64,000 nucleotides of DNA from Ilex aquifolium (lineage: Eukaryota; Streptophyta; Magnoliopsida; Aquifoliales; Aquifoliaceae): NCBI GenBank assembly GCA_951799425.1, contig OX637396.1, positions 34,898,701-34,962,700 of the forward strand, in the 5' to 3' direction. The notes under the pieces were generated by a model. It did not search any database and was not told where the DNA came from. It saw only the letters and a list, made by a program, of their open reading frames with translations. Positions 4,415-64,000 of the stretch are shown here, one piece after another (the first letter of the stretch is position 1; every line of letters starts with the position of its first letter). The position numbers and the translations under genes were made by a program.

Positions 4415-4452
4415 AAGATGCGAAGTGCGAAAGACCAAAAAAAATCAATACT

Positions 4453-15853: not shown

Positions 15854-15933
15854 GTGGTCGACGATTTGAATGAGCTATTGGATGAAATCGCGACAGAAAT
15901 ATTGGGACACAAGTTGAGTTTGGAGCCAATAAG
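15854..15933 (+). pseudogene. CNL relic: part of the N-terminal coiled-coil (Rx-N) domain
   Basis: The translation reads VVDDLNELLDEIATEILGHKL, matching residues around 76-95 of the intact CNL (YDLDDLLDEIATEALAHEL). It is about 80 bases long and has no start codon, NB-ARC domain or LRR. With the CNL 3' flank at 17725 it brackets an almost wholly deleted CNL gene. The call rests on this one motif plus position. Confidence 0.7.
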
Positions 15934-17720: not shown

Positions 17721-17724
17721 TTAG

Positions 17725-19419: not shown

Positions 19420-20940
19420 TATTTGCATTTGCTATTGGTTGCAGTTTTTTGACATTTTTGCTTTGTCTAATCTTTTTGTTCATTTGCCAAATGGATGTTG
19501 CTTGGCAGCTAAAGATGTTAGGATTGCTGCCGCCAGGTTTTGGCCTATTTGCAATCAATGTAGTTTCATGTAGATTCATTTAGTTTTATTTCAGGATTTA
19601 ATCTAAAATTTCTTAATTTGGTGCTGAGATTTAATCCATCCATTACGAAATGGGAATTTTGATTTTTTTCTGAGATTGTGGGTTATGAATTGGAATGTAT
19701 TGATTTGTGTGTGTATATATATATATATATATTTTATACACAAACACAAACACAAACACACATATGTGATCAAATTTAAAATTAATGCAAAATCAAAATT
19801 ATTTAATTTTAGATACTTTCTCAAATAAGAACTTTTTTTTTTTTTTTTTGCATCTCTCATATACACGTGTTCAAATTCAAAGCTCCTTAATTGTAAAATT
19901 TTTTTTTCAAATTAGGATTCTCTCTCTATATATATATAACGCATTCAAATTTAACATCTAAATCACCTTAATTGTAATTTTTTTTTCCAAATTGGGATAC
20001 ATATATTAGGGGTATTAATCGAGCTGAGTTTTGCGAGCTTGAGCCCGAGCCTGGTGAGCTTATTTTTCTAAACGTGCCTAAAAATTGTTCAAGTTTGGCT
20101 CTTTAGAACTCGAGCCGAGGCCGAATAGCTCGACTATTTTACATATAAAATGAGCCGAAATTTGTGAGTTTGAACCGAGCATTTTAGACTCGTTTTTATA
20201 AACGAGCCTAAAAAGTTGTTCAAACTTAGCTCGTTTAGAAAACGAGTCGAGCTCGAGCCAAATTTTGCTTGAGCTCGAGCCTGAGTAGTTCACCTCGATG
20301 AACACCCCTAATTGATATAGTGACAAATAGCAATGACAGAATGAAAAAAACAGGGAAAAATGAAACACAGTAACATTGTAAAACCTCTTTTGCTCTTCAT
20401 AGCCCTCTCTCTGTCTCTCTCTTTCTCTCTCTCTCAGATATATGTATGTATATATACACACACACGTAACTAATTTCAAAACTTAAACAAATTTCAAAGG
20501 GTTTTCATTCGCGTTTGAAATTTATTTATCTCAATAAAACAAATCTTAGAAAAAAAGGAAAATAAAATTTGTTAGTCGTTAATCAAGGTAAAGGCAATTA
20601 AGTAATAAGGTAATATTTAAAATTACAATTTGTACTTAATAACTGAAATTTTAGGCGCCAATAGACATATTAACCGAAAAGTGTGAGTTGTGTATTTAAA
20701 ACTAAATAAGTTTTTTGAAGTGTATCCATTGACAATTTTTTGTAATTTCCTTGCTATGAGAGATAAAAAAAAAATAAGGAAAATGATCAAAAATGTTGCA
20801 CACTTAACTTGAAGGATGAGGGAGAAAATGGGACAAGTCAGACCTCAATCTCTATCACTTTTTTGGAAAGTGAAGCAACAGCTATGATGAGAAAATATTC
20901 CAACTATTTATAGAAGAAGACCATGTGATTTTTGTTTATG
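19420..20940. repeat. Shared module between L1 pseudogene and CNL leader, copy B
   Basis: Nearly colinear with 60940-62480 and, for its first 270 bases, with 42095-42370. It starts TATTGGTTGCAGTTTTTT and contains TTTTGGCCTATTTGCAATC, a TA/CA microsatellite at about 19711-19765 and a hAT-like element. The first 150 bases look exon-like (a TTGCAG acceptor followed by a frame with LFV-LPNGC), but the frame differs between copies, so coding is not supported here. Confidence 0.75.
20007..20310. mobile_element. hAT-like non-autonomous element, copy B
   Basis: The ends TAGGGGTATTAATCGAGC and CTCGATGAACACCCCTA are inverted. The interior is a palindromic GAGCTCGAGCC-type composition. The copy at 61517-61819 sits at the same place, so insertion predates the duplication. 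Flanking duplications are too worn to define. Confidence 0.7.
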
Positions 20941-22590
20941 AAAAAAACAAAATAAGGACAATGGGGTGGTTTTGAGGAGAAATTCTATGTCTATTAAAGC
21001 TTTTATCAAATTTTAAATCCTAAATGATGTGATACATTAATAATCATTAGATGGTTACTGAAAGTTTATGCGATCCACTAATTTAATGATTTCCATTGAT
21101 TTAATGTAGAAAATGCAAAACAAAAATGGTAGGATCATCTTTAGCTGAGAATGTTCTATGTATTTTTTAAACCCTTTTAAGTATTTTTTTAAGTAGTGTT
21201 ATTTTATATATATTTTTTTGTTTATATTCGTGTTTGTTCCCTTCTTTTGCATTTAATCGTGTTCATAGTAATATAACTATTGCGCGTGCGCACACACACG
21301 CACCCCACATTAAAATGCTCAAGGAAAATTCCACTTTTCTTTTACTTTATTTTTTTTAAGAAAAAATTTGAGAGAAATTCGACATAATGAGATCAAATTA
21401 CAATTCGATAGCTAAAGTTGTGGTCTAATAAAGTCTAAAATCTTGGAATCGATCCTAAAAATGTTAGAATTACTCCCAAGTTTTCAAAGGCCGACCTCAT
21501 CATAAACCACTTCCTTTTGTCCCCCACCACCTTCATGTAGGCCTGTCAATGGAGTAGATTTCAACCTGAATCCGATCTTAATACGAATCCGTTTAAGTGG
21601 ATATGGATCAAATTTTCAATCCATTAATTTGATCCGATTCGAATTCGATTAGAGTTGTCTAAACAAAATAGGATATGGATTTATAATAATCCGATCTGAA
21701 TAAAAAATTTATTATGTAAATAAATATCACACATATATTACACTTATACCAGAAAATAAGTAAAAAATAGAGTGAATATCACAATGTATGACCCACTTTT
21801 TTTTTTTTTTTTTTGTTTCCCTCTCTTGTTTGATTTTCCCTCTTTCTTTTACTTCAATTTTTCATTTCTCCTCTTTTTTTAGTTCATTATCAAATTTCTT
21901 ATTGTTAATTTTTGGTGTGTATGTGTTTTTTTGTGATAATCGGATCAGATTAGACATCTGAAAATTAACGGATATGGACATGGATTGAATTTTTCAAATC
22001 CGTCGAATAATTAGATAGGATCGGATCGACAAAAACTTAATTAGATTCAAATTCGAATTCGGATATATGTCAATCTAATCTATATGACAGGCCTACCTTC
22101 ATCATCTCGTCTACACACGAAAATGCTAAGCAATGTCCTCTTCATTGTCCACATACATACAAAAATGGTATGACTAGCTTTTTTTGCATTAGCTGCTTAA
22201 CTTTGATAGCAATATATCAATAGGATTTAGGAGAAAAATACATATGTTATATTATTATGAAAAAAAATTAAAATAAAAAATTCGAGTTGATATTGAAGGC
22301 CCTAAATTTCACTTGGGGCCCTAGGCAGTCACCTAATGGCTTAGCCCCAACGCCAACTCTGTCTTTGGTTATCGGCGAGGCTGCTAATATATGATAGGGA
22401 GATAATTGGGGTTTTGTTCAAATATTAATACGGTGTCGAAAGTCTGTTAGAATTTATATTAAAATTTCTTGATTTTGGTTGGTGCCACGTGAATGCCACA
22501 TCATTTTGTCCTTCATTTTAATTCAAGTTTTAGTCAGTTTAGCATTATTTTTTATTCCCAATCAGCTTCATTTAATTTTATTTTTATACA
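20940..22590. repeat. CNL promoter-distal leader module, copy B
   Basis: It matches 62500-63620 and, more distantly, 46900-49100 upstream of the intact CNL (TAGGATCATCTTTAGCTGAG, then CGTGTTTGTTCCC, then GATCAAATTACAATTCGATAGC). A 558-bp transposon interrupts it at 21538-22095. No coding sequence. Confidence 0.7.
21538..22095. mobile_element. hAT-like element (558 bp) private to copy B leader
   Basis: The ends TAGGCCTGTCA and TGACAGGCCTA are perfect inverted repeats. The flanks CCTTCATG (21530-21537) and CCTTCATC (22096-22103) are an 8-bp target duplication with one mismatch. The leader at 63090-63110 reads through as CACCTTCATCATCTCG, the empty site. The arms carry repeated GATCCGATTCGAATTCG-like inverted sequence. 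Confidence 0.85.
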
Positions 22591-22795
22591 GAATTTGGTG
22601 AACGTCTAATTCTGTGCAAAGTCATCAAGGGGGGTAAAAGAAAATCAGAAAGGATAGAAGTTATTACATTAGTCTAAAAAACAATAATATATTCCTCTGT
22701 TGAAAGAAACAATTTTTTTCTTCTTTCACCACATAGACTTTCAGGCCTTAATCAGTGTTGAAACCAATCCTTCACACCCCTATATTTTCTTAAGG
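22590..22795 (+). promoter_or_regulatory. Orphan CNL leader, copy B
   Basis: It corresponds to the last part of the leader before the CNL start codon (49100-49320): GAATTTGGTGAACGTCTA, then ATTACATTAGTCTAA, then CATAGACTTTCAGG and CCAATCCTTCACACCC. Homology ends at TATATTTTCTTAAGG, about 50 bases short of where an ATG would be, and no CNL follows. The copy at 63620-63830 ends at the same breakpoint. Confidence 0.75.
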
Positions 22796-22934
22796 TTATA
22801 GATTTTAACCTCAGCACGACAATCCCAGACACAAAAATATATATTTTTTGAACAGATTTGTTAAAAGCACTATTAAGAATGTACAAATTTGTTTTAATGG
22901 CTTCACCTTAAAGGTAATCAGGTAAGTTATACCT

Positions 22935-41839: not shown

Positions 41840-42270
41840 GTTTCTAAGTCCTATTACTTTAAAAAAGGCTGATTCGGAACAATTGGTTGGTACTAGCCGA
41901 GTGTTTTGCTTCTGGAACATTTTCTGATAGTTGTAGCTACATAAATCGTCAAGATAACATTGAGAATAAGCCTCCAAGGGAAGCTGTTGTTGAATGGTCC
42001 ATAGAGCATAATCCAAATGCATTCAGGCCAACAAAGATTGTTGGTAGTCCACACTACAAATGCATGAGAGTTTCATTACAAGGCTTTGTGTCAAAAGGTT
42101 TGCTATTGGTTGCAGTTTTTTTGACATTTTTGCTTTGTCTAATCTTTTTGTTCCTTTGCCAAATGGATGTTTGCTGGCAGCTAGAGATGTTAGGATTGCT
42201 GCTGGCAGTTTTTGGCCTAATTGGAATCAATATAGTTTCACGTAAATTCATTTAGTTTTATTTCGGGATT
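41840..42270 (+). other. Unrecognised exon-like segment
   Basis: Bases 41887-42090 read as a protein-like sequence of balanced composition (PPREAVVEWSIEHNPNAF, then PTKIVGSPHYKCMRVSLQGF), unlike the surrounding AT-driven frames. The continuation to 42255 is strongly hydrophobic in this frame. In another frame, a TTGCAG acceptor-like site at 42112 is followed by an alternative with LFVPLPNGC and FWPNWNQY, ending at TAA. From 42095 on, the sequence is the shared module also found at 19420 and 60940. I cannot name the family. It may be a relic of a gene whose downstream exon was spread with the cassette. Confidence 0.35.
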
Positions 42271-42370
42271 AAATCCGAAATTTCTTAATTTGGTGTTGAG
42301 ATTAACCCATCCATTATGAAATGGGGATTTTGATTTTTTTTGAGATTGTGGGTTATGAATTGGAGTTTAT
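42095..42370. repeat. Shared module, partial third copy
   Basis: It matches the first ~270 bases of 19420-20940 and 60940-62480 (TATTGGTTGCAG, GTTTTGGCC-like, TTTAGTTTTATTTC, AACCCATCCATTA-like words), then diverges into a GT microsatellite where the others have TA/CA. Confidence 0.8.
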
Positions 42371-42588
42371 TGATTTGGGTGACCAATGATAGTTGGCATT
42401 TTTGTGCTTCAGTCTGTGTTGTATGTTTGTGTGTGTGTGTGTGTGTGCATGCAGAGAAAATGAAGAAGGAAAATGTGTGTGTGTGACAAGTGTGAGAGAA
42501 ACATGATGACGAAGGGGATGGAGGAGGAGGATGGAAGGGCATAAACATGGTCAGAAATTTGCAAGGACGCAGTTGGAGTTGCAGGTAT

Positions 42589-46899: not shown

Positions 46900-49373
46900 T
46901 TTTTTTATTTTGAAAAAATAACAGTTAGTGCATGAAAGTTTATGCGACTTATTAATCTAATAATTTACATTGACTTGATATAGAAAATGCACAGTAAAAT
47001 TGTAGGATGATCTTTAAGGTTTTATGTATTTTTTAAATCCTTTTTAAGTAGCATTTATTATGTATTTCTATTTTTTTTTTCATATTCGTGTTTGTTTCCT
47101 TCGCATTCATAGTAATATACCGTTGCGCTCGCACAGACTAACACCCCACATAAAAATGCTTAAAGAAAATTCCACTTTTCTTCTACTTTATTTTTTTTCT
47201 AAGAAAAATTTTGAGAGAAGTTTCAACAGAATGAGATCAAATTATAATTCGATAGTCAAAGTTATGACTCAATAAAGTCTAAAAACTAGGGATCGATCCT
47301 AAAAATATTAGAATTACTCCCAAGTTTTATTAATCTTACACACGCAAAATGCTTATCAATTTTTTTTGTTTTGATAAATGAATAAATAAACCAACAAATA
47401 TGGAATAATGAGTTGGTTTTTCAAAGGCCGGTCTCATCATAAACCAGTTCCTTTTGTTTTGTTTCCCACCCTCCTTCCCTCTGAATATTGTGATTAACTT
47501 CCCTATGAATATTGTGGCCCTTGGACGATTCCACCCCCTCGAAGTGGGTATTCTTTCTCTTTAATTCTAATTTTCTTTTATTTTTTAAAATTCTAAAAAA
47601 AAAATACACGTAATAATTGATATCAAAGAAGACGATTCTATTAATAGTTACATCATCACAAATTTTGAAGTTAATGCTTAAATTAACCCCCCCCCCCCCT
47701 CCCTCCCCTCCCACCACCCAAACAAAAAAAATACAAAATGCCCGTCAAATTGTTCTTTGTTTTAAGTAGTTTTTTGTTTTGATAAATGAATAAAAAACCC
47801 AACAAATATGGAATAATTACCAACAACTCTAATATTGATGTGTTGATTGAATTGTTTGAGTGAAAAATGTTTTTGGGATGAATTATTAGATAAAAATAGA
47901 TGTAGATTAAATTAATTTTTATTTTTATTGTATTTTTATAAATTAAAAATTTAACATAATATTGGATAGATGGGGGGTGGTTTTCAAAAGGCGGCCTCAT
48001 CATGAACCACTTCCTTTTGTCCTCCACCCACTTTAATCATTTCGTCTACACTGGAAAATGCTAAGCAATTTCCTCTTCATTGTCCACATACATACAACAA
48101 TGGTAGGACCCCTACACCACTTTTAGGATTAAAGTAAATGAGTTACTTTAATTTTGTTTAAGGGCAAAAATAAAAAATAAAAAATGGACAAGGTTCATTT
48201 TCTCCTGAACCACTTTTAAGATTAAAAAAAAAAAGAATATGATGGGATCGCCAGAAGGAATGATTCACGAATCAATAAGATCAAATTACAATTCAATAAG
48301 GCCAAAGTGAATTTCAAACACTTGGGCTCCATCCTAAAGAGTTGGGATTAATCCTTAGCTTTTTTGATCAATCTTAAATCAATCCATTGAGTTATCACTA
48401 AACTTGTTTGAGTCGTTACTTAATATGATGAAATTGTAATTACAAAACATAGTCGTTGAAAATTCCCTTCCCTTTTTTCTCTGACGTAGCAATAATGAGA
48501 GCACACAAAGAGATAACTGCTTCTAAGTATAAGGAACAAAAATACTTTGAATTCACATATAAAAACAAGAGAATAATACTGAAAATATATATTATTAATT
48601 GAATAATTCGTACTACATAGCAATATATATATATATATATAGAAATGAACAAATTCTTAATCGTTCCTAGAATAATCAATTTCTCTTTAAGAATCTCTCC
48701 AAATCTATGTGATAACCTATAAAATCAAAACCTAAAATTTTACAAAACCAAAAATCTCTTTGAGCGAAGATATAGAGAGGTGTGTATGATCTTGACCTAT
48801 TTGGTGATAAGTTGGGAGTTAATCATTTTAGAAATCTAATTGAGTTGAACTAAAATTAGTTAATTTTCAAAAAATGAGCTTAAAAATTATATGAAATTCA
48901 AGTCAATATATAATTTGAATGAACCTATAATGAATCCAGTTCAAGTCAAACTCGAGTTGCTTGGATACTTTAACAGTCCAATTCTAGGACACCCTTGTTG
49001 TACATAAATAATTTTTTTTTTGCAAAATAATTTTTGTTAATTAAATTTTTTAACATGAGTGGAAAAAAATATTGCCCTATCACCTAACTATAGAGATTAC
49101 AGAGTTTGGTGAACGTCTAGTTCTGTGCAGAATCATCAAGAGGAAAAGGAAAAAACAGAAAGGAAAGAACTTATTACATTACATTAGTCTAACTAACAAA
49201 CAATAATATACTCATTGCTCTTTTGCAAAAAAAAAAAACACCTTTTTTTTTCTCCTTCATCGCATAGACTTTCAGGAGGCCTTAATCAGTACTGTTGAAA
49301 CCCATCCTTCACACACCTCCATTTCTCTCTGTGTTCCTCTTGTTCCCACTCCATCCCCCAAAACCGAAAACAA
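46900..49373 (+). promoter_or_regulatory. CNL upstream region and 5' leader
   Basis: Aligned in pieces with 20940-22795 and 62500-63830, so it is the 5' arm of the duplicated cassette. The closest block, 49100-49320, is the best conserved (GGTGAACGTCTA, CATAGACTTTCAGG, CCTTCACAC). The ATG lies in an AACAAATGGCT context (A at -3, G at +4). One WRKY W-box core TTGACC is at 48792-48797, and I do not claim it is functional. A duplicated phrase (AAGGC(C)GG(T/C)CTCATCAT) occurs at 47423 and 47990, and a C13 run at 47687-47699. No clear TATA box was assigned. Confidence 0.65.
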
Positions 49374-52300
49374 ATGGCTATCGCTGAAGTTTTCCTGGGT
49401 GCGTTTTTAGGTGTGCTATTACAGAGATTGACCTCTGACAAGCTGTTGAACTTTGCTCGTTGCATGGGAATTGATACCCAGCAGTTGGAGAAATTGAGCC
49501 AAATGTTGATGACTATTCAAGCAGTGCTTAGCGATGCAGATGCTAAGCAAATAACAGAGAAAGCTGTGAAATTGTGGCTGAATCGTCTCAGTGATTTTGC
49601 TTACGATTTGGATGATCTACTGGATGAAATTGCCACAGAAGCTTTGGCACATGAATTGAAGTCGGAGACCGAAGCAGCAGCTACCACAAGCAAGGTACTG
49701 GACTTCCTCTATAATTCTATTACTGATATCCCTACGACTATTGGGCGCCCGTTAAAGATGGGGCCCAAGATTGAGGAGATCACTTTCAGATTACAAGAAA
49801 TTGCACAGCTGAGAGATGGTCTGGGTTTGAGAGTTAATTCCGAAGAGAAGTCAAACACAAGAAGAGAGAGTTTGCCAACAACTTCTTTGGTGAATGAATC
49901 GCATGTCTATGGTCGGGAAAAGGAAAAACAAGATATACTCGAATTGGTGCTCAAGGATGAAGCATGTAATGATGAAGCTTGCGTCATTCCAATAGTTGGG
50001 ATGGGTGGTGTGGGCAAGACCACTCTTGCTCAACTTGTGTACCGTCATGACAAGGTTAAGAATTTCTTTGATTCCAAAGCATGGGTGTGTGTTTCTGAAG
50101 AGTTTGATGTATCCATGATAACCAAGATTATTCTCGAGGCAGTGACCAAGGAAAGATGTGACTTCAAGGACCTCAACATGATGCAAGAGAGTCTTGAAGA
50201 GAAACTTTCTAGAAGAAAATTTCTTATTGTTTTAGATGATGTCTGGAATGAGAACTACGAAAAATGGGATCTCCTCTGTGCTCCTTTCCGAGTTGGGCAA
50301 CCTGGAAGTAAAATTATTGTTACAACTCGGAATGAAGGTGTTTCATCAACCATGGGTTCTGTTCCTTCTTACCCTCTGGATGTTTTGGCAGAAGACGATT
50401 GTTTGTCTTTGTTGGCTCAACATTCATTGGGCAAAAGAAATTTTGTTGACCATCCAAAGTTGGAAGCAATTGGCAAGGCTATTGTCAGAAAGTGTGGACG
50501 TTTGCCTTTGGCAGCAAAGACACTAGGAGGCCTTCTGCGTAATAAACATAGCCCAGATGAGTGGAAAGATAAACTGAATAGCAAAATTTGGGAGTTAGGA
50601 GAGGACAAGAGTCGCATTCTTCCAGCTCTGAGATTAAGCTATCATCATCTCCCATCTGAGTTGAAGCAAATGTTTGCATATTGTGCCATATTTCCAAAGG
50701 ACTACGAGTTTGAAATGGATGAGTTAGTTTTGTTATGGATGGCAGAAGGATTTCTGCCACAATCAGAAGAAATGGAAGTGTTCGGTGGAAAGTGTTTCAT
50801 GGAGCTATTATCAAGGTCCTTCTTCCAACGTTCAGGTGGCACCGAATCAAAATTTGTGATGCATGACCTTTTGAATGATCTAGCTCAATATGTTGCTGGA
50901 GAAACATGCTTTAGGTTGGATGATAATATGGAGGGCAATGAACAGTGTAAGATTTCTGAAAAAACTCGTCACTTATCATTCATTCCCCACCGATACAATG
51001 TCTATAAAAGATTCAAGCCATTTCATGAACTTCGGGGTTTGCGGACTTTTATAACGCTGCCAATTTATTCGCCAGATTGCCGGTGGAACAAGTATTATTT
51101 AAGCAATAGCGTTTTGGTCGAGCTACTACCAAACTTACGGTGCTTAAGAGTCTTATCTTTGTGTGGGTACACAATAAGTGAGCTACCCAACTCCATTGGG
51201 GATTTGAAGCATCTGCGGTACCTTAATTTATCTTGGACCTTGATTAAATCGTTGCCAGAATCAGTGAGTACTCTGTACAATTTACAGACATTGTCATTAA
51301 GAGGTTGCAAACAACTTCGTAAGTTGCCCACAAACATTGGAAATTTGGTGAACCTGCGCCATCTTGACATTCGAGATACTCCAAATTTAAAAGAGATGCC
51401 TTCAGGGATCAGTAGATTGAAATTTTTGCAAACATTGCCAAAGATTATTGTTAGCAAAAATAATGGATTTGGACTCGGAGATTTGAATGGCTTATCGCAT
51501 CTAAGAAGTAAGCTTTCCATTGAAGGGCTAGAAAATGTTACGAAAATGCGGGATGGAGAGGAGGCCAATTTAAGTTGTAAGCAGGATCTTAATGTGTTGA
51601 AATTCAAATGGAATAGTGACATTGAAGATTCTCAAAATGAAGGGCTACAGGTTAGTGTGTTGGGCATGCTACGACCACATAGAGAATTGAAAAGTCTTAA
51701 AATTGTGTTCTACAGGGGCATTGCATTTCCTAGTTGGATTGGGGATCCGTCCTCCTCTAAAACAGTGCACATTAAACTCAAAGGTTGTACAAAATGCGTG
51801 TATTTACCACCACTTGGCCAACTACCCTTGCTCAAAGAACTATACATAGAAGACATGCATGCTGTAAAAAGAGTGGGTGTAGAGTTCTATTGCAGTGGTA
51901 GCACTTTGGAGATTCCATTTCCCTCGCTCGAGATTCTGCGGTTTGACAAGATGCCAAAATGGGAGGAATGGTCTTTTTCTTATGTTGATTTTAGAGGACT
52001 TTTCCCTTGCCTTCGTGAGCTTTCTATACGCAATTGTCCTAAGCTGGTGAGTGTTCCACACTTGAGACTTCCCTCTCTTCTTGATTTAATCATAAAAAAT
52101 TGTGACGGGGCGGTGTTGAAAAGTTTCACTGGATTATCCTCATTAACCAACTTGACAATTGAGAAAATGTGGGGAATAACTCATCTGCCGAAGGAGTTCA
52201 CGAATGAGTTGGTGTCACTTAAAGTTCTTAAAATTGAATATTGTGCCACGTTGGTGACTCTGTGGCAGAATGGGATTGCACCAGAAGAATACCTTTCGAA

Positions 52301-53831
52301 TTTGCAACACCTATTTGTCTGGCAGTGTCCTCTACTTGTGCAACTGTTAGATGAAGATCGAAGGCTACCTTGTAATCTTGGAAGTTTGGATTTAATGAGA
52401 TGTGAAAATCTGGAGAGGTTGCCTTATGGACTAAAATACCATACATATCTCAAGGAGGTGAGAATCAGCAGTTGCCCAAAGCTTGTTTGGTTTCCAGAGG
52501 ACAGTCTTCCGCCCATGCTTAGTCTTCTTTGCGTTAAAAATTCCAATTCTCTGGAGTCCATCCCTAATTGCTTCACTCGTCTTGAAGAGTTACGACTCCA
52601 GGAGTGCACGTCTCTGAGATCCTTGCCGACAGACACTCTTATCTCCACGCTTAAGTCTGTTTTGATCACCGGTCATTCCGGGAATTTGGAGTGGCTTAAA
52701 GAGATGGTCAAACAGAGCATCATGTCAGGAAGCTTTGGGATCAGTAATTGGCCCAATTTGGAGAGTTTTAGAGTAGGGGTGTCGGGGTTTGCATATGATT
52801 TGAGGTATCAAATCGACCACTCGCTCTCAGGAAGTGGTTTGCTCACTCCCAACCTAACAAGTCTTCACATCTATGAATTTGAAGATCCCTTTTCCTTTCC
52901 TAGCCAAAGTCAAAGCCTCGCCTTCCTCAAATCACTCTATATAAAGAATTGTCAAAGTCTTGAGTCCTTTCCTGACCAAAATTTGCCCCCCAACCTAGAA
53001 GAGCTATATATTCTCAATTGCAAAGAACTTAAGCCTCTATCAGAGTGTGGCCTACAAAGTCTCTCCTCTCTTCGGCGTTTCACCATGGAAAGTGTATATC
53101 CAACGCTAACTTCCTTTCCGGACTCATGTTTTCTTCCAGCTACTCTAAAATTCCTGAGTATTGACAAATTCTCAAATCTCAAGTCTCTCTCGAAGGGCCT
53201 CCAAAACTTGACCTCTCTTGAGAATCTAGAGATTGAGAATTGCCCAGAGCTCGAGTCTCTCTCTGATGGGCTCCGAAACTTGACCTCTCTTGAGCGTCTG
53301 GACATCAGTTATTGCCCTAAGATTGAGTCTCTCTCTGAGGGGCTCCGAAACTTGACCTCTCTTAAGTTTATGAACGTCAGGGATTGCCCTAAGATTGAGT
53401 CTCTCTCTGATGGGCTCCGAAACTTGACCTCTCTTGAGCATCTGACAATCTGCAATTGCCCTAAGCTTGAGTCTCTCTTTGAGGAGTTCCAGAAGCTGAC
53501 CTCTCTTAAGTATCTGACAATCAGCAGGTGCGACAAGTTGGGTTCCTTGCCGAACGAAACGATACTTGACACACTTTCAAGTCTGATCATAGAAAACTGC
53601 CCACTTCTTGAAGCACAGTTTTCCAAGGAGAAAGGAGTTGATTGGCCCAAGATCGCTCATGTCCCCTATGTTAAGATTGATTCTTCCAGGTACCATTCAC
53701 GTTGCATTTCTTTCCTTATGATCTGCTTGCCCCTGTTTTCAAATTTTTGTTTTGTTTTGTTTGGCTGGGATCCTCTGTTTTCACGTTGCATTTTTTTTTT
53801 TTTTTTTGCCTCTGTTTTCAATTTGTTTTAA
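49374..53831 (+). CDS. CC-NB-LRR (CNL) disease-resistance protein, I2/R3a/RPP13-like class
   Basis: Predicted intracellular immune receptor: an ATP-switched NB-ARC with an LRR sensor. The coiled-coil Rx-N domain (1 to ~110) has AYDLDDLLDE at 76-85. NB-ARC: VYGRE at 178, P-loop GMGGVGKTT 209-217, kinase-2 FLIVLDDVW 283-291, RNBS-B GSKIIVTTR from 311, RLPLA 376-380 (first Gly of GLPLA is Arg), CAIFPKDYEF from 437, MHDL at 496. LRRs run from about 560 to 1430. The last five are nearly identical 24-residue units. All switch motifs except the GLPLA Gly are intact, and there is no frameshift in 1485 codons. An AG/GTACC donor at 53690 and a TTTACAG acceptor at 54281-54283 suggest an intron. Splicing would end the protein three codons on (TGA 54291), at about 1441 residues. 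Unspliced, the frame adds a ~47-residue hydrophobic tail to 53831. The effector recognised cannot be inferred. Confidence 0.95.
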   Translation: MAIAEVFLGAFLGVLLQRLTSDKLLNFARCMGIDTQQLEKLSQMLMTIQAVLSDADAKQITEKAVKLWLNRLSDFAYDLDDLLDEIATEALAHELKSETEAAATTSKVLDFLYNSITDIPTTIGRPLKMGPKIEEITFRLQEIAQLRDGLGLRVNSEEKSNTRRESLPTTSLVNESHVYGREKEKQDILELVLKDEACNDEACVIPIVGMGGVGKTTLAQLVYRHDKVKNFFDSKAWVCVSEEFDVSMITKIILEAVTKERCDFKDLNMMQESLEEKLSRRKFLIVLDDVWNENYEKWDLLCAPFRVGQPGSKIIVTTRNEGVSSTMGSVPSYPLDVLAEDDCLSLLAQHSLGKRNFVDHPKLEAIGKAIVRKCGRLPLAAKTLGGLLRNKHSPDEWKDKLNSKIWELGEDKSRILPALRLSYHHLPSELKQMFAYCAIFPKDYEFEMDELVLLWMAEGFLPQSEEMEVFGGKCFMELLSRSFFQRSGGTESKFVMHDLLNDLAQYVAGETCFRLDDNMEGNEQCKISEKTRHLSFIPHRYNVYKRFKPFHELRGLRTFITLPIYSPDCRWNKYYLSNSVLVELLPNLRCLRVLSLCGYTISELPNSIGDLKHLRYLNLSWTLIKSLPESVSTLYNLQTLSLRGCKQLRKLPTNIGNLVNLRHLDIRDTPNLKEMPSGISRLKFLQTLPKIIVSKNNGFGLGDLNGLSHLRSKLSIEGLENVTKMRDGEEANLSCKQDLNVLKFKWNSDIEDSQNEGLQVSVLGMLRPHRELKSLKIVFYRGIAFPSWIGDPSSSKTVHIKLKGCTKCVYLPPLGQLPLLKELYIEDMHAVKRVGVEFYCSGSTLEIPFPSLEILRFDKMPKWEEWSFSYVDFRGLFPCLRELSIRNCPKLVSVPHLRLPSLLDLIIKNCDGAVLKSFTGLSSLTNLTIEKMWGITHLPKEFTNELVSLKVLKIEYCATLVTLWQNGIAPEEYLSNLQHLFVWQCPLLVQLLDEDRRLPCNLGSLDLMRCENLERLPYGLKYHTYLKEVRISSCPKLVWFPEDSLPPMLSLLCVKNSNSLESIPNCFTRLEELRLQECTSLRSLPTDTLISTLKSVLITGHSGNLEWLKEMVKQSIMSGSFGISNWPNLESFRVGVSGFAYDLRYQIDHSLSGSGLLTPNLTSLHIYEFEDPFSFPSQSQSLAFLKSLYIKNCQSLESFPDQNLPPNLEELYILNCKELKPLSECGLQSLSSLRRFTMESVYPTLTSFPDSCFLPATLKFLSIDKFSNLKSLSKGLQNLTSLENLEIENCPELESLSDGLRNLTSLERLDISYCPKIESLSEGLRNLTSLKFMNVRDCPKIESLSDGLRNLTSLEHLTICNCPKLESLFEEFQKLTSLKYLTISRCDKLGSLPNETILDTLSSLIIENCPLLEAQFSKEKGVDWPKIAHVPYVKIDSSRYHSRCISFLMICLPLFSNFCFVLFGWDPLFSRCIFFFFFASVFNLF
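53190..53520 (+). repeat. 72-bp LRR-encoding tandem repeats
   Basis: CTCCGAAACTTGACCTCTCTT-like words fall exactly 72 bases apart at 53199, 53271, 53343, 53415 and 53487. The middle three units are almost identical at DNA level. Each encodes one 24-residue LRR (ESLS(D/E)GLRNLTSLE). This is a recent in-frame expansion near the C-terminus of the CNL. Confidence 0.95.
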
Positions 53832-54283
53832 TCACGTCTATGCCTATAAAGACAAAAAGCGAAACTTACACTTAGCACACCAACACTATGGCCCAAATCT
53901 CATTTTGGCCCTCTATAATCAATTTGGTCATATTTTCCTATATTAATTGGTTTCATTCACATGGCCCCAAATCCCAATGACTGATAACTCATGCATGAAA
54001 ATTGACTAAATTGCATGCCACTTTATTGCTGCAAAATTCAGTGGTTTTTATGCATTTCCATCTAAAGCAAAATGAACCTTTGGACTTAGGATTATGTGAA
54101 ACCAGTTCATGTAGTTAAAGTTCAATGGGAAAAACACCTATAGTAGAAGAGGTAATGTAAAATTGTGGTCATCATTTATAAGTGTAAATCTATCCTGTTG
54201 AAAGCAAACTAAGACGCATTTTGATATGTGTTCACCTATTGTTTAACGCGGCTAAACTTCCTGCTTTGTGTTGATGTTTACAG
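53690..54283 (+). other. Putative CNL 3' intron
   Basis: GT at 53690 (TTCCAG/GTACC) and AG at 54282-54283 (GATGTTTACAG) bound an AT-rich segment of 594 bases that aligns, from about 54080, with 17725-17930 of the deleted CNL copy. The segment after the acceptor (54284-54350) is the best-conserved part of this region between the two copies. Whether it is a last exon or 3' UTR is undecided. Confidence 0.55.
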
Positions 54284-55700
54284 GACGAGATGAGGCCTGT
54301 TTTGACGAGCAACTTTCTTATGTGCCAACCACAGATGATTTCGGTTTGATTTGTTCTTGTTAAATGTTTTCCTGCCATTTTTTTCCCCTTTATATTTTGT
54401 ATTTCCATGTATTATATTATTGTCTAAGAGTGCACTAGTTGCTTCTAATTTATACTAGGATATGTACCTGCCAACTTTTTTTTTTTTTTTCTGTTTTTGT
54501 TTTTTGGTGAGTTGCCAACTTCACGCTGTAAATGATTGTTATCAAGTTTAGCTATGAGATTATAAGTCAAAAACTTATGAAAGATTTTGCACATTCGTCC
54601 GATGGTGATTGTAATTTGACTATTCCTTGTTTAGCTAGTGAGCTAATAGCAAAGCTTTCGTGATCTTTGGAACTATTATTTGTTCGTTGTCATTGAAAGA
54701 AATTATAAATGTGTAAATAGAAAAGTGCAGATAAAAAAAAAAAGAGTAGAATTAGACGAGCAATGCAACGAATAATGTGGTTTACAAGAAATTTATTGTT
54801 GTATTGTATAGAGTTGTTGATCATCCTTAGTCTATATGGGGTGTACTTATCCAATTGGCCTAACAAAAATTTTTGGGTCAAATTGTCAGCATATTGTATT
54901 GATGTATATCTAAATACTATTTGTCAAGATAGCAGATTTAAGGATTCAGATTATTATTAGACATATTTATCGAATACCTTCTATCACTTGCTAATACATG
55001 GATCAAATTGGCATTGAAGTACAGTCTATTCAGACCGAAACCCTACTTATGCTGTGGTGAACTAAGTAATAAATAAAATTTTATCGAACAAAATATAGTA
55101 CTCTTGAGAGCTTCCATGATCAAGTTATGGTTCTCAAAGTGCATTCAATTCTCATTCTTGCATAGCATCAACACAAGCTATTGCATCACATTGTCCCCCA
55201 ACAGCATAGTCATCGATACACAAGCTTCGCTACCAGCCCCCAAGTTACGAGCTTCACTACAATCCTCCCAGGTGGTCGAAAGGTATATGCTGCAATTTGC
55301 ACTTCATGACTTCACAAAGAGCCCGTCAGTTTCCTGGTAATTTACAACATCAATGCAAGTTCTGAATACTTGTTATCTCTCACTCTCTTTCTCCCAGTTC
55401 CTTATACATTTGTGTCATACATTTATTTACACCTAAAGTTTATCATGAAACCCGACTTTTCATGAAGGAGAGCTCATTAATATTTATAGCAATGGCCTCA
55501 ATTGCATGCACAATGAATTGTTCTGTTATCTGCCTGGTGGCTAATGGTGAGGGAAGGATTATGGTAGACAGAAGTGTTCATGAAGTTGACGGCATGAACT
55601 TCTATATCCTAGTCATATGTAAAAACTTATTAGGTTCACTATCAAAGCCTTTTCGAATTTTCTTTAGTACATGTTATTGCTATGTGACGTTTTTTTCCTT
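54080..55700. repeat. CNL 3'-flank module, copy C
   Basis: Reference copy for 17725-18880 and 7905-8640. It carries a short frame at 55104-55340 similar to one at 8175-8410, but stops and length differ between copies, so I treat it as non-coding downstream sequence. Confidence 0.75.
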
Positions 55701-56009
55701 GGTATAGATATGGTGGGCTTATAATCGTAAAACATCTCCACCATTTAGATTTGACCAACTATATGTTGATCTAAGGTTGGCCGTATTGTAATTATAGATA
55801 ATGTGTCAAAATTAATAGAGCTTTCAATTTTAAAAAAACCAGAGAAACCACAAAGGCTTCCTTCATGAAGAACCTTGTTCAGATCTACATCGATATGAAC
55901 GTAACTAAGAAATTTACATATTCCATACAACTGTGGTTAAGATAGAGGCGATCTATACTGCATATAACAACTTGATTATTTCTTAAAATCCCCACATGTT
56001 TTTATTGGT

Positions 56010-56980
56010 AGTATTTTTTTTGGTACATAAAGTTAAATTTATTGATGGGAAGAAATAATCTTTACAAGCAAAAAGGGAGAAATCATCAAAACTCCTTTAC
56101 AAGCAAAAATGGAACTCAATCAATCTTACAAAAAAATTGCAGCACATAGGCTATACAAACTATATCATTCTTAACACTGCATATACCCTTTTACTACTCC
56201 AATTCTGACTGTCAAAAAAGCCAAACTATGCAGCACAGGAAAAACAACACCAAACTAGCAGGGAACATAGCAACATGACAGCATTGAAGAGAAACTCCAA
56301 ACACAGTATCCTTTAAGAAGATAAGCAGTTACCAGGATATACTATCTTTATACTAGTTGTCTATTGACATAAGCATTAGGGAGTTTCAAAGCACATAATT
56401 TGCTTGTAATTACTTCCTAGATTTCTTTGCTAACATGTCCTTCAAGGTCTGCAAAGAGACTCAGTTTCAGATGAAGAGTCTTCAAAGATTTTCTTCTCCG
56501 TTCAGCAACAACTTCTTATATAAGTAAATCCAATTGTAAAAAGAGCACATTACGGGCCATTCCTGTCCATTATTGAACACCAAAGTCCAAACTTCGTTAA
56601 GAAAAGGACATTGGAAGAATAAATGATAATGACTCTCAAGTGGATCCCTGCATATGCAATGTTCATCTACCGAAAGCATAAATTATTTAAATCTGTTTCT
56701 TGTACTCACCCTTCCTTTGATAGTTGACCAAAGAGTAAAGCCAAATGAGGCCATATCATAGCTGGGGAAGATGTAGGTTGGTCTTGTGTTTTATAAATCA
56801 AGAAGATTCACTTCATATCCCTTGCAACTTGTGGTATGATATAGGTTTTCTTTCCTAACTAGTTCTCAAAGAAATATTGTCTTTTTAGAGAAACATAGAC
56901 AGTGGCACAATCTCATTTCTTTTTGAAGCCTTGTATAAGATCTTCATCAAGAATGAAAGTGGTTGCAGATTGTTCGAGGG
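56010..56980 (-). mobile_element. L1-type LINE 3' end, copy C
   Basis: A poly(T) at 56014-56022 and GTACATAAAGTTAAATTTATTGATGGG mark the 3' tail on the minus strand. Codons at 56679-56482 give the zinc-binding tail of a LINE reverse transcriptase: DEHCICRDPLESHYHLFFQC, PFLNEVW, then GQEWPV. It is the best preserved of three copies (1-620, 9030-9720). The element is 5'-truncated and has no catalytic domain. Confidence 0.8.
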
Positions 56981-57284
56981 AAGTGAGTTTTATTTATTCT
57001 TCCATTACACGTGAACTACTTCGAGTTGTTGTTTTGATTTTTATTTTCCATGTACACGAGGGTACAAAACGAAGACTTGAAGACAGTAGAGATGTTAAAT
57101 AGTATGGTTTAGTATATCTACTATCAAGAGAGAACTTGGATAAATTGATGAGTTTTTGAAGGCCACAAATAGGAAAAAACTTCGGAATATATCTTTCAAG
57201 CATGGTAAGGTCATTACATTATATCAAGGGATGTACAACGAACAGTGATTATGTGAGAAATATGTGGATATATTGAGCATATAC

Positions 57285-57890
57285 AACTAATTTTTTCGTG
57301 CTATGTTTTGATATATTGAAATATTACTATTTAAAAATGTGATCAATCGATCATAAAATGAAATTTCTAAACAAAAGACAAATAAAATTAGAACAATTTC
57401 ACATTAAAGTACTAAAATTTAAATAGAGAAAAATTACCATCGTACTCGATCCTAATGTTTCAAATCAAATTGGACGAATTAGAAACATCAACCACCACTA
57501 TTACAACCCAAATAAATAAAATTTGACAACTCCGCGAAATTCGATTACTCTTCAAATCCTATAGAGATAATTTCATTGTAGTTTGTCAAACAGGAGTTTT
57601 GAAAGACAAGATGGGAACTATATCTAATCTCTAACTCACTTGTTGTGTAGGTAAGGATTTATATCAAAGTTAACAGTGCATTTAGATGGGGCCAAATAAG
57701 TAATTGAAGGACTAAAATTTACACAAAACATAGGAGCATATACAACTAATCTTTTCGTGCTATATTTTGATATATTAAAATATTACTATCTAAAAATGCG
57801 ATCAACCGATCATAAAATAAAATTTCTGAGCAAAAGACAAATAAAATTAGAACAATTCCACATTAAATTACTAAAATTTAGACGAAAAAT
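57285..57890. repeat. Direct duplication, ~140 bp units 455 bp apart
   Basis: About 57285-57425 and 57740-57880 share GCATATACAACTAAT, GATATATT.AAATATTACTAT and CAAAAGACAAATAAAATTAG with scattered differences. This pair is specific to copy C: copies A and B lack the 57240-58280 interval. No gene was seen in this interval. Confidence 0.8.
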
Positions 57891-58755
57891 TACCATTGTG
57901 GCTATTACTCCCATGAATCACTCTCTCCAAGCATCGTCTTTTACTTTGACTCGATCTACCTTTGTTTCAGTCTCTCTTCGTCTCAATCTCGATGTGGTTC
58001 ACATATTAAGAAATTAATCAACATTTTGGGCAGCAAAAAGGCACAGAAAATAATGGACACTATCACGATTATGGCACGATACACTCAATGAGCATTTTGA
58101 TACAAAAATCATCACGTGCACATCATGCCCCATGAACTATACCTAATCTCTTACTCTCTTAATGTGCAGGTGAGGATTTCTGTGAAAGTTAACAGCGAAT
58201 TTATACAAAAGGGCCACATTGAGTTAGATTTCTTAATTTAGAGACTAAAATTGACACAAAACATAATTCAAGGACTTGATTGACACAAATAATGTAGTTC
58301 ATGGGTCAAATAAGTAGTTAATTTAACTCTAATATAATTCTAAAGTTGTTTTCTTTCGATCTACTTTCTCATAAAAAGCAAAGTTAAGCCATTTTCTTGT
58401 TGGTCTAGCATTATCACCTGAGTAAGAGATATCTAAGCTTCTATATTATTTTTCCGATGCTTAAACTTCTATATTATTATTCTGATACATAAATCTCTGT
58501 TCTATACTCTTTTACAACCCAAATTTCTTATACAAGTTACAAGACTTAACCTGTCTTCTTGGGCAAATGATATTTTGTACTCTGAAAGATCTTCAAATAT
58601 TTAATTCGTACCCTAAAAAATTAAAATTCTCACATTCGATCTTAAACTAAACAAAAAAAAAAAAAACATTTAACTTTGCACTTTGTATCTTAAAAGATTT
58701 TAGATTCTCATTTTATGCTCATATGCATTTGTTGTTCTTGCTCTACAACCCAGTA

Positions 58756-60130
58756 TCCAACTATACCAAGTCTTATGTCCCAATTATTTGGGATCGGTTA
58801 AATTTGTTCGTTTTCGCCATTCATTTCGGATATGCGCTATATGCTCATTTAAGTTAAATATTTTCATATATTTTCTTATTATTTCGTTCAATGTTAATTT
58901 AGGTCTACCCGTATTCCTAGTACCATTAAGAGAAGTTTTATCACTTTTTTTAATCGGTATCTCTATCGGTCTCCATTGAACATGACCAAACCATCTTATT
59001 CTATGCTCTCTCAACTTATCCTCAATTGGAGCTACTACTACTATTTATCTAATACGATCATTTCGTATTCTATTATTTTTAGTTTTTTCGCACACCCACC
59101 TTAACATTCTCATTTCCGCTGTACTCATTTTGTCACTATTTTGTTTCCTAGTTGCCTAACATTCCGTCTCATATAACATTGTTGTCCTTATAACTGTTCG
59201 GTAAAACTTGTCTTTTAATTTATTGGTATCCTTCTATCACATAATATGCCAGAGGCTTTCCTCCACATAAGCCAACCAGCGTTAATTCTATGAATTACAT
59301 CATCTCCAATCTCTCTATCATTTTTAATGATCAATCCTAGATATCTAAATCGTTTACTCGTTTGTATTTCTTGATTTTCTATCTTAATTTTTTCACTATG
59401 CTTACTTCTTTTATTACTAAAATTACATTTTATGTATTCAGTCTTACTCCTACTTATTTTAAATACTTTTGACTCGAGTGTCTCTCTCCAAATTTTTAGC
59501 TTATTATTAATCTCCTTCAAGTTTCATGTACTAAGACAATATCATCTGTAAAGAGCATATACCGTGGGAATCATCTTGAATGGGTCTAGTTAATCTATAA
59601 TTAGGACGAATATGTATGGACTTAGGGCTGATCCTTGGTACAATCCTACGATGATTGAAAATCCTTTACTTTCTCCCACAGAAAACATAATTGTAGTCAT
59701 AGCCCTATCATACATGTCTTTTATCACCTCAAAATACCGATTCACCACTCACTCAAGCACCGTCCATATTATATTTCTGCGCACTTTATCAAACGTCTTT
59801 TTAAGATCTATAAATACTATATGTAGATTTTTTTTCTTCTCTCTATACTTTTCTATAAGTATCCTAAATAAATATATAGCCTCTAAAGTTGATCTACTAG
59901 GCATAAATCTAAACTGATTTTCTGAAACTGTAGTCTCAACTCTTAGGTGACGTTCAATTACCCTTTCCCATAGTTTCATTGTACGACTCATCAACTTTAT
60001 CTCTCTAAAATTATTATAATTTTGAATATCTCTTTTATTTTTATAGATAGGTACTAAAATACTCTTTCTATATTCATCATGAATTTTTCCGGTAGCAATA
60101 ACTCTATTGAATAATTTCGATAGCCACGAC
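58756..60130 (-). mobile_element. RTE-type LINE, 5'-truncated, copy C
   Basis: The minus strand encodes reverse transcriptase pieces: MSWLSKLFNRVIATG, YRKSILVPIYKNKRDIQNYNN, QFRFMPSRSTLEAI and VFIDLKKTFDKVRR (60132-59749), a catalytic box LFTDDIV at about 59540 (the family usually has FADD), the thumb region YLGLIIKNDREIGDDVIHRI (59520-59215) and the C-terminal RIRWFGHVQWRP (58996). The target duplication ACAACCCAGTA (58745-58755) / ACAACCCGGTA (60131-60141) is clear, and copy A near 2275 has one uninterrupted site. The 3' tail reads GGGACATAAGACTTGG, like plant RTE ends. Frameshifts separate the pieces. Confidence 0.9.
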
Positions 60131-60278
60131 ACAACCCGGTACGATGAATGTGTTTTATTGAGGTACGTCTGGCCTTTGCTTGAATTCTTTTTTTCTTTTT
60201 CTTTTTAATTATGTTGCTGAATTTAACCCATGGAAACAATTTATTACTATCTCTAATGTTTGTTCAAGGGCAGACTAG

Positions 60279-60488
60279 GGGTTGTTTGATAACTCAATTC
60301 AGCACTTAAAACTAAATGTATTCCTTATTTTTGAATTAAGCTTGTTTAATAATACAAGACCAATATCACTTGGTGAATTAAGTTGCACTTAAAAATGAGT
60401 TAAAATTTTAAGTCAATTGGGACTTAATGTTCTCGCTAAACTCGCTAAGCAGTTGGTGTTTCAGTATTCAGTTTTATTAAACACTACC
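60279..60488. mobile_element. Tourist-like MITE, copy C
   Basis: Same insertion as 13947-14168: GGGGTTGTTTGATAAC start, TTATTAAACACTACC end, and a flanking TAG/TAA pair. Confidence 0.75.
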
Positions 60489-60939
60489 TAAATTTCGTGT
60501 CTTTTTTCAATTTTTGTATTTAACTTTGGAATAATTGGTATGTGCAGACTCAATCAACGGGCTTTGCTTATTTTTTTCTTGAATTTTGATTTTAGTATTC
60601 ACATGTAAGAAAATAGCTGTTAGTGAAGCATATAGCCACATTCATATCGTATTGAATTTGTATTATATTATAGTGCTGTGTCAATTTCTCTTGAAATTGC
60701 CATGAGTAACATTGTCAATGTGAGAAAGTGTGGGAACTTTCACTTTGGGTCCAATTTAACTGGTTGGCTTGAAACTAATTGTAGTTGACAAGCATTAAAA
60801 TATTGTGCTTCAATCTTTACTTGCACGTTAATCTGTTGGGGAAATCTTATTTTACACCTTGAAAGATTTAATTTTTTTTAATTTACACCCCTCAAAGATT
60901 AGATTTTTCACATTACACTATCCATGTATTAAAATATTG

Positions 60940-61196
60940 GTTGCAGTTTTTGACAATTTTGCTTTGTCTAATCTTTTTGTTCATTTGCCAAATGGATGTT
61001 GCTGGCAGCTAAAGATGTTAGGATTGCTGCTGCCAGGTTTTGGCCTATTTGCAATCAATGTAGTTTCATGTAGATTCATTTAGTTTTATTTCAGGATTTA
61101 ATCCAAAATTTCTTATTTTGGTGCTGAGATTAACCCATCGATTACGAAATGGGGATTTTTTTTTTTTTGTGGGTTATGAATTGGAATTTATTGATT

Positions 61197-61250
<54 letters not shown>

Positions 61251-62480
61251 AACAAAAACACAAACACAAACACAAACACACACATATGTGATCAAATTTA
61301 AAATTAATGCAAAATCAAAATTCTTTAATTTTATATACTTTCTCGGATAAGGACTATTTTTTTTTTTGCACTGATACACGTGTTCAAATTCAAAGCTCCT
61401 TAATTGTAATTTTTTTTTCAAATTAGGATTCTTTCTCTCTCTATATATAACGCATTCAAATTTAACATCTAAATCACCTTAATTGTAATTTTTTCCCCAA
61501 ATTGGGATACAAATATTAGGGGTATTAATCGAGCTGAGTTTTGCGAGCTTGAGCCCGAGCTTGGTGAGTTTATTTTTCTAAACGAACCTAAAAATTGTTC
61601 AAGTTGAGCTATTTAAAACTCGAGCCGAGGCCGAATAGCTCGACTATTTTACATATAAAATGAGCCGAAATTTGTGAGTTTGAGCCAAGTATTTTAGACT
61701 CGTTTTTGTAAACGAGCCTAAAAAATTGTTCAAACTTAGCTCGTTTAAAATACGAGTTGAGCTCGAGCCGAGTTATGTCTGAATTGAGCCTTAGTAGATC
61801 ACCTCGATGAACACCCCTAATCGATATAGTGACAAATAGTAATGACACAATGAAAAAAACAGGGAAAAATGCGGCCATAGACACCCAGGGAGAAGTGGTC
61901 CTCTTTGACAGGGCTGGTTACACAAAAATCCACTTACAATAACATTGTAAAACCTCTTTTGCTCTTCATAGCTCTCTCTCTCCCTCTCTCTCTCTCACAG
62001 ATATATGTATGTATTTACACACACCCACACACGCGCGTAACTAATTTCAAAACTTAAACAAATTTCAAAAGGTTTTCATTCGCGTTTGAAATTTATTTAT
62101 CTCAATAAAACAGATCTTAGAAAAAAGGAAAATAAAATTTGTTAGTCGTTAATCAAGATAAAGGCAATTAAGTAATAAGGTAATATTTAAAATTACAATT
62201 TGTACTTAATAACTGAAATTTTAGGCGACAATAGACTTATTAACCGAAAAGTGTGAGTTGTGTAGTTAAAGCTAAATAAGTTTTTTGAAGTGTATCCATT
62301 GACAAATTTTTGTAATTTCCTTACTATGAGAGATACAAAAAATAAGAAGGAAAATGATCAAAAATGTTGCACACTTAACTTGAAGGATGAGGGAGAAAAT
62401 AGGACAAGTCAGACCTCAATCTCTATCACTTTTTTGGAAAGTGAAGCAACAGCTATGATGAGAAAATATTCCAACTATTT
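60940..62480. repeat. Shared module, copy C
   Basis: Colinear with 19420-20940, including a TA/CA microsatellite (about 61199-61285, longer than in copy B) and the hAT-like element. About 60 bases at 61870-61935 are present only here. Confidence 0.8.
61517..61819. mobile_element. hAT-like non-autonomous element, copy C
   Basis: TAGGGGTATTAATCGAGC and GATGAACACCCCTA ends. Orthologous by duplication to 20007-20310. Confidence 0.7.
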
Positions 62481-63620
62481 ATAGAAGAAGACCATATAAA
62501 TTTTGTGGATGAAATAAACAAAATAAGGACAATGGGGTGATTTTGAGGAGAAATTATATGTCTATTAAAGCTTTTATCAAATTTTAAATCCTAAAAGATG
62601 TGATACGTTAATAATCATTGGATGGTTATTGAAAGTTTATGTGATCCACTGATTTAATTATTTCCATTGATTTAGTGTAGAAAATGCAAAGCAAAAATGA
62701 TAGGATCATCTTTAGCTGAGAATGTTCTATGTATTTTTTAAACCCTTTTAAGTATTTTTTAAGTAGCGTTATTTTATATATATATTTTTGTTCTATTCGT
62801 GTTTGTTCGCTTCTTTTGCATTTAATCATGTTCATAGTAATATACCTATTGTGCGCGTGCACACACACGCACCCCACATTAAAATGCTCAAGGAAAATTC
62901 CACTTTTCTTTTACTTTATTTTTTTAAAGAAAATTTTTGAGAGAAATTTCGACATAATGAGATCAAATTACAATTCGATAGCTAAAATTGTGGTTTAATA
63001 AAGTCTAAAATCTTAGAATCGATCCAAAAAACGTTAGAATTAGTCCCAAGTTTTCGATGGCCGGCCTCATCATAAACCACTTCCTTTTCTCCCCCACCCA
63101 CCTTCATCATCTCGTCTACACACGAAAATGCTAAGCAATGTCCACTTCATTGTCCACATACATACAAAAATGGTAGGACCAACTTTTTTTGCATTAGCTG
63201 CTTAACATTGATAACAATATATCAATAGGATTTAGGAGAAAAATACATATGTTCTCTTATTATGAAAAAATTAAAATAAAAAATTTGGGTTGATATTGAA
63301 GGCCCTAAATATCACTTGGAGCCCTAGGCAGTCACCTAATGGCTTAGCCCCAATGCCAACTCTGTCTTTGGTTATTGGCGAGGCTGCTGATATATGATAG
63401 GGAGATAATTTGGATTTTGTTCAAATATTAATATGGTGTTGATAAATTTAAAAACTTGCATGGGTAGAAAGTCTCTTAGAATTTATGTTAAAATTTCTTG
63501 ATTTTGGTTGGTGCCACGTGAATGCCACATCATTTTGTCCTTCATTTTAATTCAAGTTTTAGTCATGTTTAGCATTATTTTTTATTCCCAATCAGCTTCA
63601 TTTAACTTTATTTTTATACA
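62480..63620. repeat. CNL distal leader module, copy C'
   Basis: Matches 20940-22590 without the 558-bp transposon, and 46900-49100 more distantly. No coding sequence. Confidence 0.7.
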
Positions 63621-63830
63621 GAATTTGGTGAACGTCTAATTTTGTGCAGAGTTATCAAGGGGGTAAAAAAAAATCAGAAAGGATAGAAGTTATTACATTA
63701 GTCTAAAAAACAATAATATATTCCTCTGTTGAAAAAAACATTTTTTTTTCTTCTTTCACCACATAGATTTTCAGGCCTTAATCAATGTTGAAACCAATCC
63801 TTCACACCCCTATATTTTCTTAAGGTTATA
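63620..63830 (+). promoter_or_regulatory. Orphan CNL leader at the right edge
   Basis: GAATTTGGTGAACGTCTA, CATAGATTTTCAGG and CCAATCCTTCACACCC match 49100-49320. As at 22795, homology to the intact leader stops at CCTATATTTTCTTAAGG. From there both orphan copies share about 80 bases of other sequence (GGTTATAGATTTT, ACACAAAAA), so the interruption happened once, before they separated. What lies beyond 64000 is unknown. Confidence 0.75.
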
Positions 63831-64000
63831 GATTTTGATCTCATTAGAACAACCCCAAACACAAAAAAAATATAATTTTAGAACAAATTTGTTAGGAGTA
63901 CTATTTGATGATGCACAAATTGGTATCGTGCAAGATCAACAGTCAAGTATGAGTAATGATGCAATTAATGAGTAGTTAGCAAGCAATCAATGACAATCAA

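Follow-up and report, generated by a model that had tools for sequence, protein, structure and literature searches.

Repeated blocks around a single CNL gene

The 64,000-nt stretch of Ilex aquifolium DNA analysed here (assembly GCA_951799425.1, contig OX637396.1, positions 34,898,701 to 34,962,700 of the forward strand; hereafter the window) carries one intact gene of the coiled-coil, nucleotide-binding, leucine-rich-repeat (CNL) class, set among four blocks of mutually related sequence, named A, B, D and C from left to right (Table 1). The recurring parts are a leader that precedes the CNL gene, the 3′ flank of that gene, a remnant of a long interspersed nuclear element (LINE), remains of a gene for plastid ribosomal protein L1, a second and larger LINE, and a shared module in which no Pfam domain was found at E ≤ 0.1 in six frames. 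A plus-strand scan of 41400-49300 likewise gave no Pfam domain at that threshold.

When the window was compared with itself, 49 matches reached 100 bp or more with E ≤ 1e-10, while each of ten dinucleotide-shuffled windows gave none, so the repeats are real and chance is excluded. Thirty of the 49 connect different blocks (A-B 9, A-C 4, B-C 10, B-D 3, D-C 4). All 30 hold the same strand, and 29 hold one order: order is kept by every match of the A-B (9/9), A-C (4/4), B-D (3/3) and D-C (4/4) pairs and by 9/10 of the B-C pair, the sole exception being the second 3′ flank of B, which matches the 3′ flank of C. These same-strand, collinear matches include sequence that is not transposon-derived (L1 exon 1 in A and B), as in local segmental or tandem duplication, and the constancy of order and strand supports the proposal of an earlier, sequence-only reading that the parts form a co-duplicated carrier block. 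The remaining matches are local tandem repeats outside the blocks (12, three of them inside the CNL gene) or fall inside a single block (7, including the only inverted match, 10323-10567 against 11075-10850).

From D into C the order is module end and leader, CNL gene, 3′ flank, zf-RVT LINE remnant, second LINE beside L1-intron sequence, module and leader. Block B begins with 3′ flank alpha, the LINE remnant and L1 exon 1 with the larger LINE and L1-side sequence (11243-15549), followed by a scrap of CNL sequence, 3′ flank beta, the module and the leader; since it has two 3′ flanks, B consists of two partial units. Block A is limited to two parts, a LINE remnant and an L1 fragment (1-4148). 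The order of parts that had been described for 46900-63830 is present, and it recurs, with losses, at 1-3737 and 7900-22892.

Table 1. Positions of the blocks and of the features within them, numbered from the first nucleotide of the window.
Feature	Block	Position	Strand	Evidence and remarks
Block A	A	1-4150		
Block B	B	7900-22892		
Block D	D	42099-49373		
Block C	C	53832-64000		
CNL gene		49374..53831	+	Single open frame, ATG start, 1485 codons plus stop
CNL coiled-coil scrap, 71 bp	B	15857..15927	+	CNL codons about 76-99; blastn, nhmmer, tblastn, translation
Module end and CNL leader	D	46933..49324 (46933-47328, 47980-48110, 49098-49324)	+	77-89% to C and/or B; K2P 0.117-0.204
First 285 bp of shared module	D	42099..42381	+	90.5% to 19428-19711; 89.5% to 60935-61201
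CNL 3′ flank	C	54075..55543	+	Parts 90.8% to 7900-8616, 78.1% to 17716-18814
3′ flank alpha	B	7900..8616	+	90.8% to 54829-55543
3′ flank beta	B	17716..18814	+	78.1% to 54075-55216; its end 80.4% to 7900-8292
Shared module	C	60935..63107	+	88.3% to 19433-21536
Shared module	B	19428..21536	+	Self-comparison
CNL leader	C	63097..63924	+	89.9% to 22092-22892; no CNL sequence between it and the window end
CNL leader, without CNL body	B	22092..22892	+	Self-comparison, CNL search
Plastid L1 gene, 5′ part	A	1426..4148	+	Exon 1 1426 to about 1788 (putative donor), exon 2 3857-4006, start of exon 3 4098-4148
L1 exon 1 part and intron part	B	11243..11936	+	372 bp shorter than in A
zf-RVT-type LINE remnant and flank	C	56027..57069	-	zf-RVT Pfam E 1.4e-9, about 56587-56751; DNA matches A 1-705, B 9034-9737
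LINE remnant	B	9034..9737	-	88.5% to 56027-56708; strand and type from the C match
LINE remnant and flank	A	1..1021	-	1-705 85.1% to 56408-57069; strand and type from the C match
RTE-like LINE with L1-intron flanks	C	58474..60642	-	RVT_1 in open reading frame 59749-60204, minus strand; junctions
RTE-like LINE in L1 intron	B	11936..13880	-	86-87% to C; junctions
Solo-LTR-like element, 515 bp, inside LINE	B	12900..13414		TG...CA ends, 5-bp flanks GTAGT; type assigned from the ends
hAT-like element, 558 bp	B	21538..22095		Inverted ends TAGGCCTGTCA; 8-bp flanks alike at 7/8
MITE-like hairpin element		4149..4432		Type and exact ends judged by eye
K2P, Kimura two-parameter distance; LTR, long terminal repeat; MITE, miniature inverted-repeat transposable element.

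The intact gene and other CNL remains

The domain set of the intact gene is complete, with Pfam Rx_N (coiled coil), NB-ARC, winged-helix and leucine-rich-repeat (LRR) matches in the one open frame. The frame also contains strings that we take to be the P-loop, kinase-2, GLPLA-like and MHD motifs. Its best-scoring solved relatives by sequence are RPP13-like protein 4, presumably ZAR1, and Sr35, and the product would be expected to function as an immune receptor. A tandem array inside the gene (53182-53526, about 4.8 copies of a 72-bp unit) is in frame and corresponds to 24-residue LRRs, a probable case of LRR growth within the gene.

No second CNL body was found in the 64 kb by tblastn, hits starting at 49001-53999 being left out as the gene itself, or by nhmmer on a copy of the window with 46001-55700 masked. 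The content of nucleotide-binding LRR (NLR) sequence is one intact CNL and one 71-bp scrap, which is recovered by blastn (76.9% over 65 bp, E 3.7e-6), nhmmer (E 1.1e-4) and tblastn (14/21 residues, E 0.013). The scrap sits between L1 and 3′ flank beta, the position expected for a CNL under a duplication model. The copies other than the intact one retain their flanks without a CNL body. The earlier view that only one gene is still alive is right in that one intact CNL is present, but within the window the other copies are not dead CNLs, their bodies being missing rather than decayed in place. Block D diverges from both B and C about 50 bp upstream of the CNL start codon (its last leader piece, 49098-49324, matches 63617-63817 of C), and directly after the leader B and C have in common about 105 bp of non-CNL sequence.

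Offsets and divergence between blocks

Offsets between blocks range from 9.1 to 58.1 kb and fall into several groups: 9.1-11.8 kb for A-B, 22.7-26.5 kb for B-D, 56.4-58.1 kb for A-C, and 41.0-48.4 kb for B-C, where the longest matches are found. The D-C offsets are 14.5, 15.1 and 15.7 kb, apart from the opening 285 bp of the module, where the offset is 18.8 kb; flank beta lies 36.4 kb from its counterpart in C, and the two 3′ flanks of B are 10.55 kb apart. A single 14.5-kb period is ruled out by these several groups. The cassette of about 14.5 kb proposed previously is real in that its parts recur in order, with losses, but not as a uniform unit. The dot-plot diagonals expected at about 10.5 and 14.5 kb are both seen within the window, yet they do not reflect one period, and the longest matches stand at 41-48 kb. 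The 14.5-kb diagonal is assigned to the older of two duplications (D-C), and the 10.5-kb diagonal to a mixture of that duplication and the A-B matches.

Most comparisons show two levels of divergence. At the older level are flank beta against the two alpha copies (K2P 0.181 and 0.208) and four of the eight D comparisons, those of the D module and leader with B and C (0.168-0.204). Between B and C the values are 0.090 for 3′ flank alpha, 0.091 for the LINE remnant, 0.127 and 0.143 for the larger LINE, 0.093 for the piece following it, 0.038 and 0.066 for the first part and remainder of the module, and 0.067 for the leader. Three A-C blocks (0.110-0.183) do not fit the two levels. Judged from these distances, a putative older duplication (K2P about 0.17-0.21) is visible at offsets of 10.55, 14.5-15.7, 26 and 36 kb, and a putative younger one (mostly 0.04-0.14) at 41-48 kb.

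The plastid L1 passenger

Exon 1 of the L1 gene in block A matches PDB entry 4v61_BD, named Ribosomal Protein L1 (E 4.3e-15), which we take to be from a spinach chloroplast ribosome, and it includes an N-terminal extension like that of plastid L1. A tblastn search with E. coli RplA found exon 2 and exon 3 pieces in A alone. The L1 domain is incomplete: beyond exon 1, A adds just exon 2, interrupted by a stop codon in frame, and the beginning of exon 3, where a MITE-like element at about 4149 terminates the fragment. Pfam missed these pieces, giving no L1 match in the plus-strand frames of 1200-4201 or of 14000-19401. In block C, protein-versus-DNA searches found no L1 coding sequence, exon 1 included, and only the L1-intron flank stands beside the LINE. 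The plastid ribosomal-protein passenger of the sequence-only reading is thus a real L1, present as a 5′ fragment in A and B, but without coding sequence found in C. Because the coding pieces of A are separated by non-coding sequence, the L1 remains are most likely a genomic fragment rather than a retrocopy.

Transposons and the order of insertions

In both B and C the L1 intron is interrupted at one and the same site by the larger LINE, which we assign to the RTE type; sequence resembling AACCCAGTA borders the element on each side (8/9 alike in C, worn in B). Block A has one AACCCAGTA-like copy and no larger LINE, and is apparently the empty site of this insertion. The junctions fit an empty site better than an internal deletion of the LINE from A. 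Within B, the solo-LTR-like element and the 558-bp element, which we presume to be of hAT type, both have clean empty sites in C. The copies can be ordered because nested transposons are present in some of them and empty sites in others; in the simplest order suggested by the junctions, A would have split off, the LINE inserted, B and C separated, and B then gained the solo-LTR-like and hAT-like elements. The notion that fixed transposons allow each copy to be tracked holds for these nested insertions, but not every copy has the larger LINE, A resembling an empty site. A Pfam scan of 53830-58331, which includes the zf-RVT remnant of C, gave one further line (UBA_RNF31, E 0.078), under its cut-off and disregarded.

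AT-rich short repeats at 4149-4432, 11159-11383, 45899-45997 and 60836-60934 match one another in both orientations and are probably a MITE family. Of these, two adjoin the edge of a block (about 4149 and 60934).

Origin of the locus

The locus is very probably part of a decayed plant CNL cluster, formed when sequence was duplicated locally and later altered by deletions and transposon insertions, as in the birth-and-death evolution known for NLR genes. Homology, order, divergence, insertion junctions, the intact CNL frame and the damage to L1 are direct observations; the steps that would link them are as follows. An ancestral unit would have run from shared module through leader and CNL to 3′ flank; in some units a LINE remnant and the 5′ portion of the plastid L1 gene would have been present as well. 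The older duplication would have given two units, alpha and beta. The younger would have copied a block whose present length is 15 kb in B and 9 kb in C, and the L1 part of this block would be present a third time in A. These duplications probably came about by unequal crossing-over. Deletions, in an order that can only be surmised, would afterwards have eliminated CNL bodies together with most of L1, and individual copies would have received transposons.

Several observations weigh against this account. Two of the ten B-C blocks (K2P 0.175 and 0.242) reach the older level, four of the eight D comparisons (0.083-0.124) fall below it, and the nine A-B blocks are spread over 0.047-0.186. Cross-matches span only part of each block: 2707/4150 bp in A, 9225/14993 in B, 1037/7275 in D and 7952/10169 in C. 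The LINE may also once have been present in block A and been lost precisely between the repeats that flank it. No CNL body adjoins the leader of B or C, so the case for a CNL in those units is made by flanking sequence and a single scrap. The window stops shortly after the C leader, whose gene may therefore stand outside it.

The absence of CNL bodies from A, B and C, together with the 105 bp of non-CNL sequence common to B and C after the leader, would also be expected if the leader, module and 3′ flank came from a different locus and the single CNL arrived later, the other copies never having had one. This is unlikely, as B has the CNL scrap just where a CNL would be expected, and the intact CNL is bracketed by leader and 3′ flank. 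Rather less probable is that CNL bodies were removed selectively, the coding part disappearing between a leader broken about 50 bp ahead of the start codon and a 3′ flank that stays, and doing so more often than neutral flanks were lost; if so, local deletion or selection would purge surplus immune receptors and leave regulatory shells behind.

Independent landing of dispersed transposon families near one another is very improbable. Some parts are indeed transposon-derived (the zf-RVT and RVT_1 LINEs), the hairpin-like short repeats recur in both orientations, and the first 285 bp of the module also stand at 42099, a piece that is possibly a dispersed element. The cross-matches, however, hold one strand and (with one exception) one order and contain L1 exon sequence, and B and C have a LINE at an identical position within their L1 intron. 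Cluster copies that resemble each other can be misassembled, but an artefact in which haplotype copies were set side by side is scarcely credible here, as the copies differ by K2P 0.038-0.242 and by private insertions and losses, differences that exceed those expected of haplotypes.

Sequence outside the blocks

Between A and B, an open frame at 5817-6428 matches Cupin_1 (E 7e-17) and is perhaps a storage-protein or germin-like gene or its remnant. Shortly after the leader of B, a plus-strand Pfam scan of 22900-30002 gave Copia-type retrotransposon remains (RVT_2, SH3-like) at 23371-24876. Farther right are a tandem array of about 9.4 copies of a 76-bp unit (29460-30178) and, at 36408-37100 on the minus strand, an open frame that matches DUF4283 and a zinc knuckle and that we take to be LINE-like.

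Comparison with other resistance-gene clusters

Among the open-licence papers listed in searches with narrow terms, neither this locus nor an L1 fragment co-duplicated with CNLs was named. The tomato Cf-4/9 genes encode receptor-like proteins, not CNLs, and lipoxygenase fragments reportedly lie between the resistance (R) genes of that cluster. The likeness to the present locus is that lipoxygenase sequence, from a non-R gene, flanks that R-gene cluster (PMC4766677); the non-R gene here is ribosomal L1. In the coffee SH3 CNL cluster, tandem and distant duplication was followed by deletions, in a birth-and-death process, and duplication edges were unrelated to mobile elements (PMC3113787). Flanking sequences and traces of old duplications served to trace copies there, as they do here, and the legend of Figure 5 of that study mentions non-R genes and truncated gene versions; unlike here, several CNLs persist and gene conversion was measured, whereas the present locus has one CNL and nested transposons that order its copies (PMC3113787).

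The melon Vat region resembles it in its NLR duplicates and pseudogene copies, the latter with LINE-type insertions, but keeps many Vat homologues, and its ribosomal protein gene L18 is a conserved marker at the region edge rather than a co-duplicated fragment (PMC8012345). Soybean Rps1-k is likewise a repeat-rich CNL locus with mostly truncated predicted genes, partial non-R pseudogenes and a tandem duplication produced by unequal crossover; unlike here, no co-duplicated L1 fragment is described in the excerpts of that account (PMC2330051). In cacao, NLR copy variation comes mainly from tandem and proximal duplication (PMC12405883).

The present case is only mildly surprising, given that other R-gene clusters, coffee SH3 among them, are also described as having duplicated flanks, truncated genes and deletions (PMC3113787). 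The locus looks like a well-preserved but ordinary example of R-gene cluster growth and decay, with an unusual passenger and good relative timing, and it leaves the general view of NLR-cluster evolution unchanged. What it offers is a readable history of one probable NLR cluster, in which the copies can be placed in order by three transposon insertions that have empty sites, and the L1 passenger fragment gives a comparison independent of the fast-evolving receptor.

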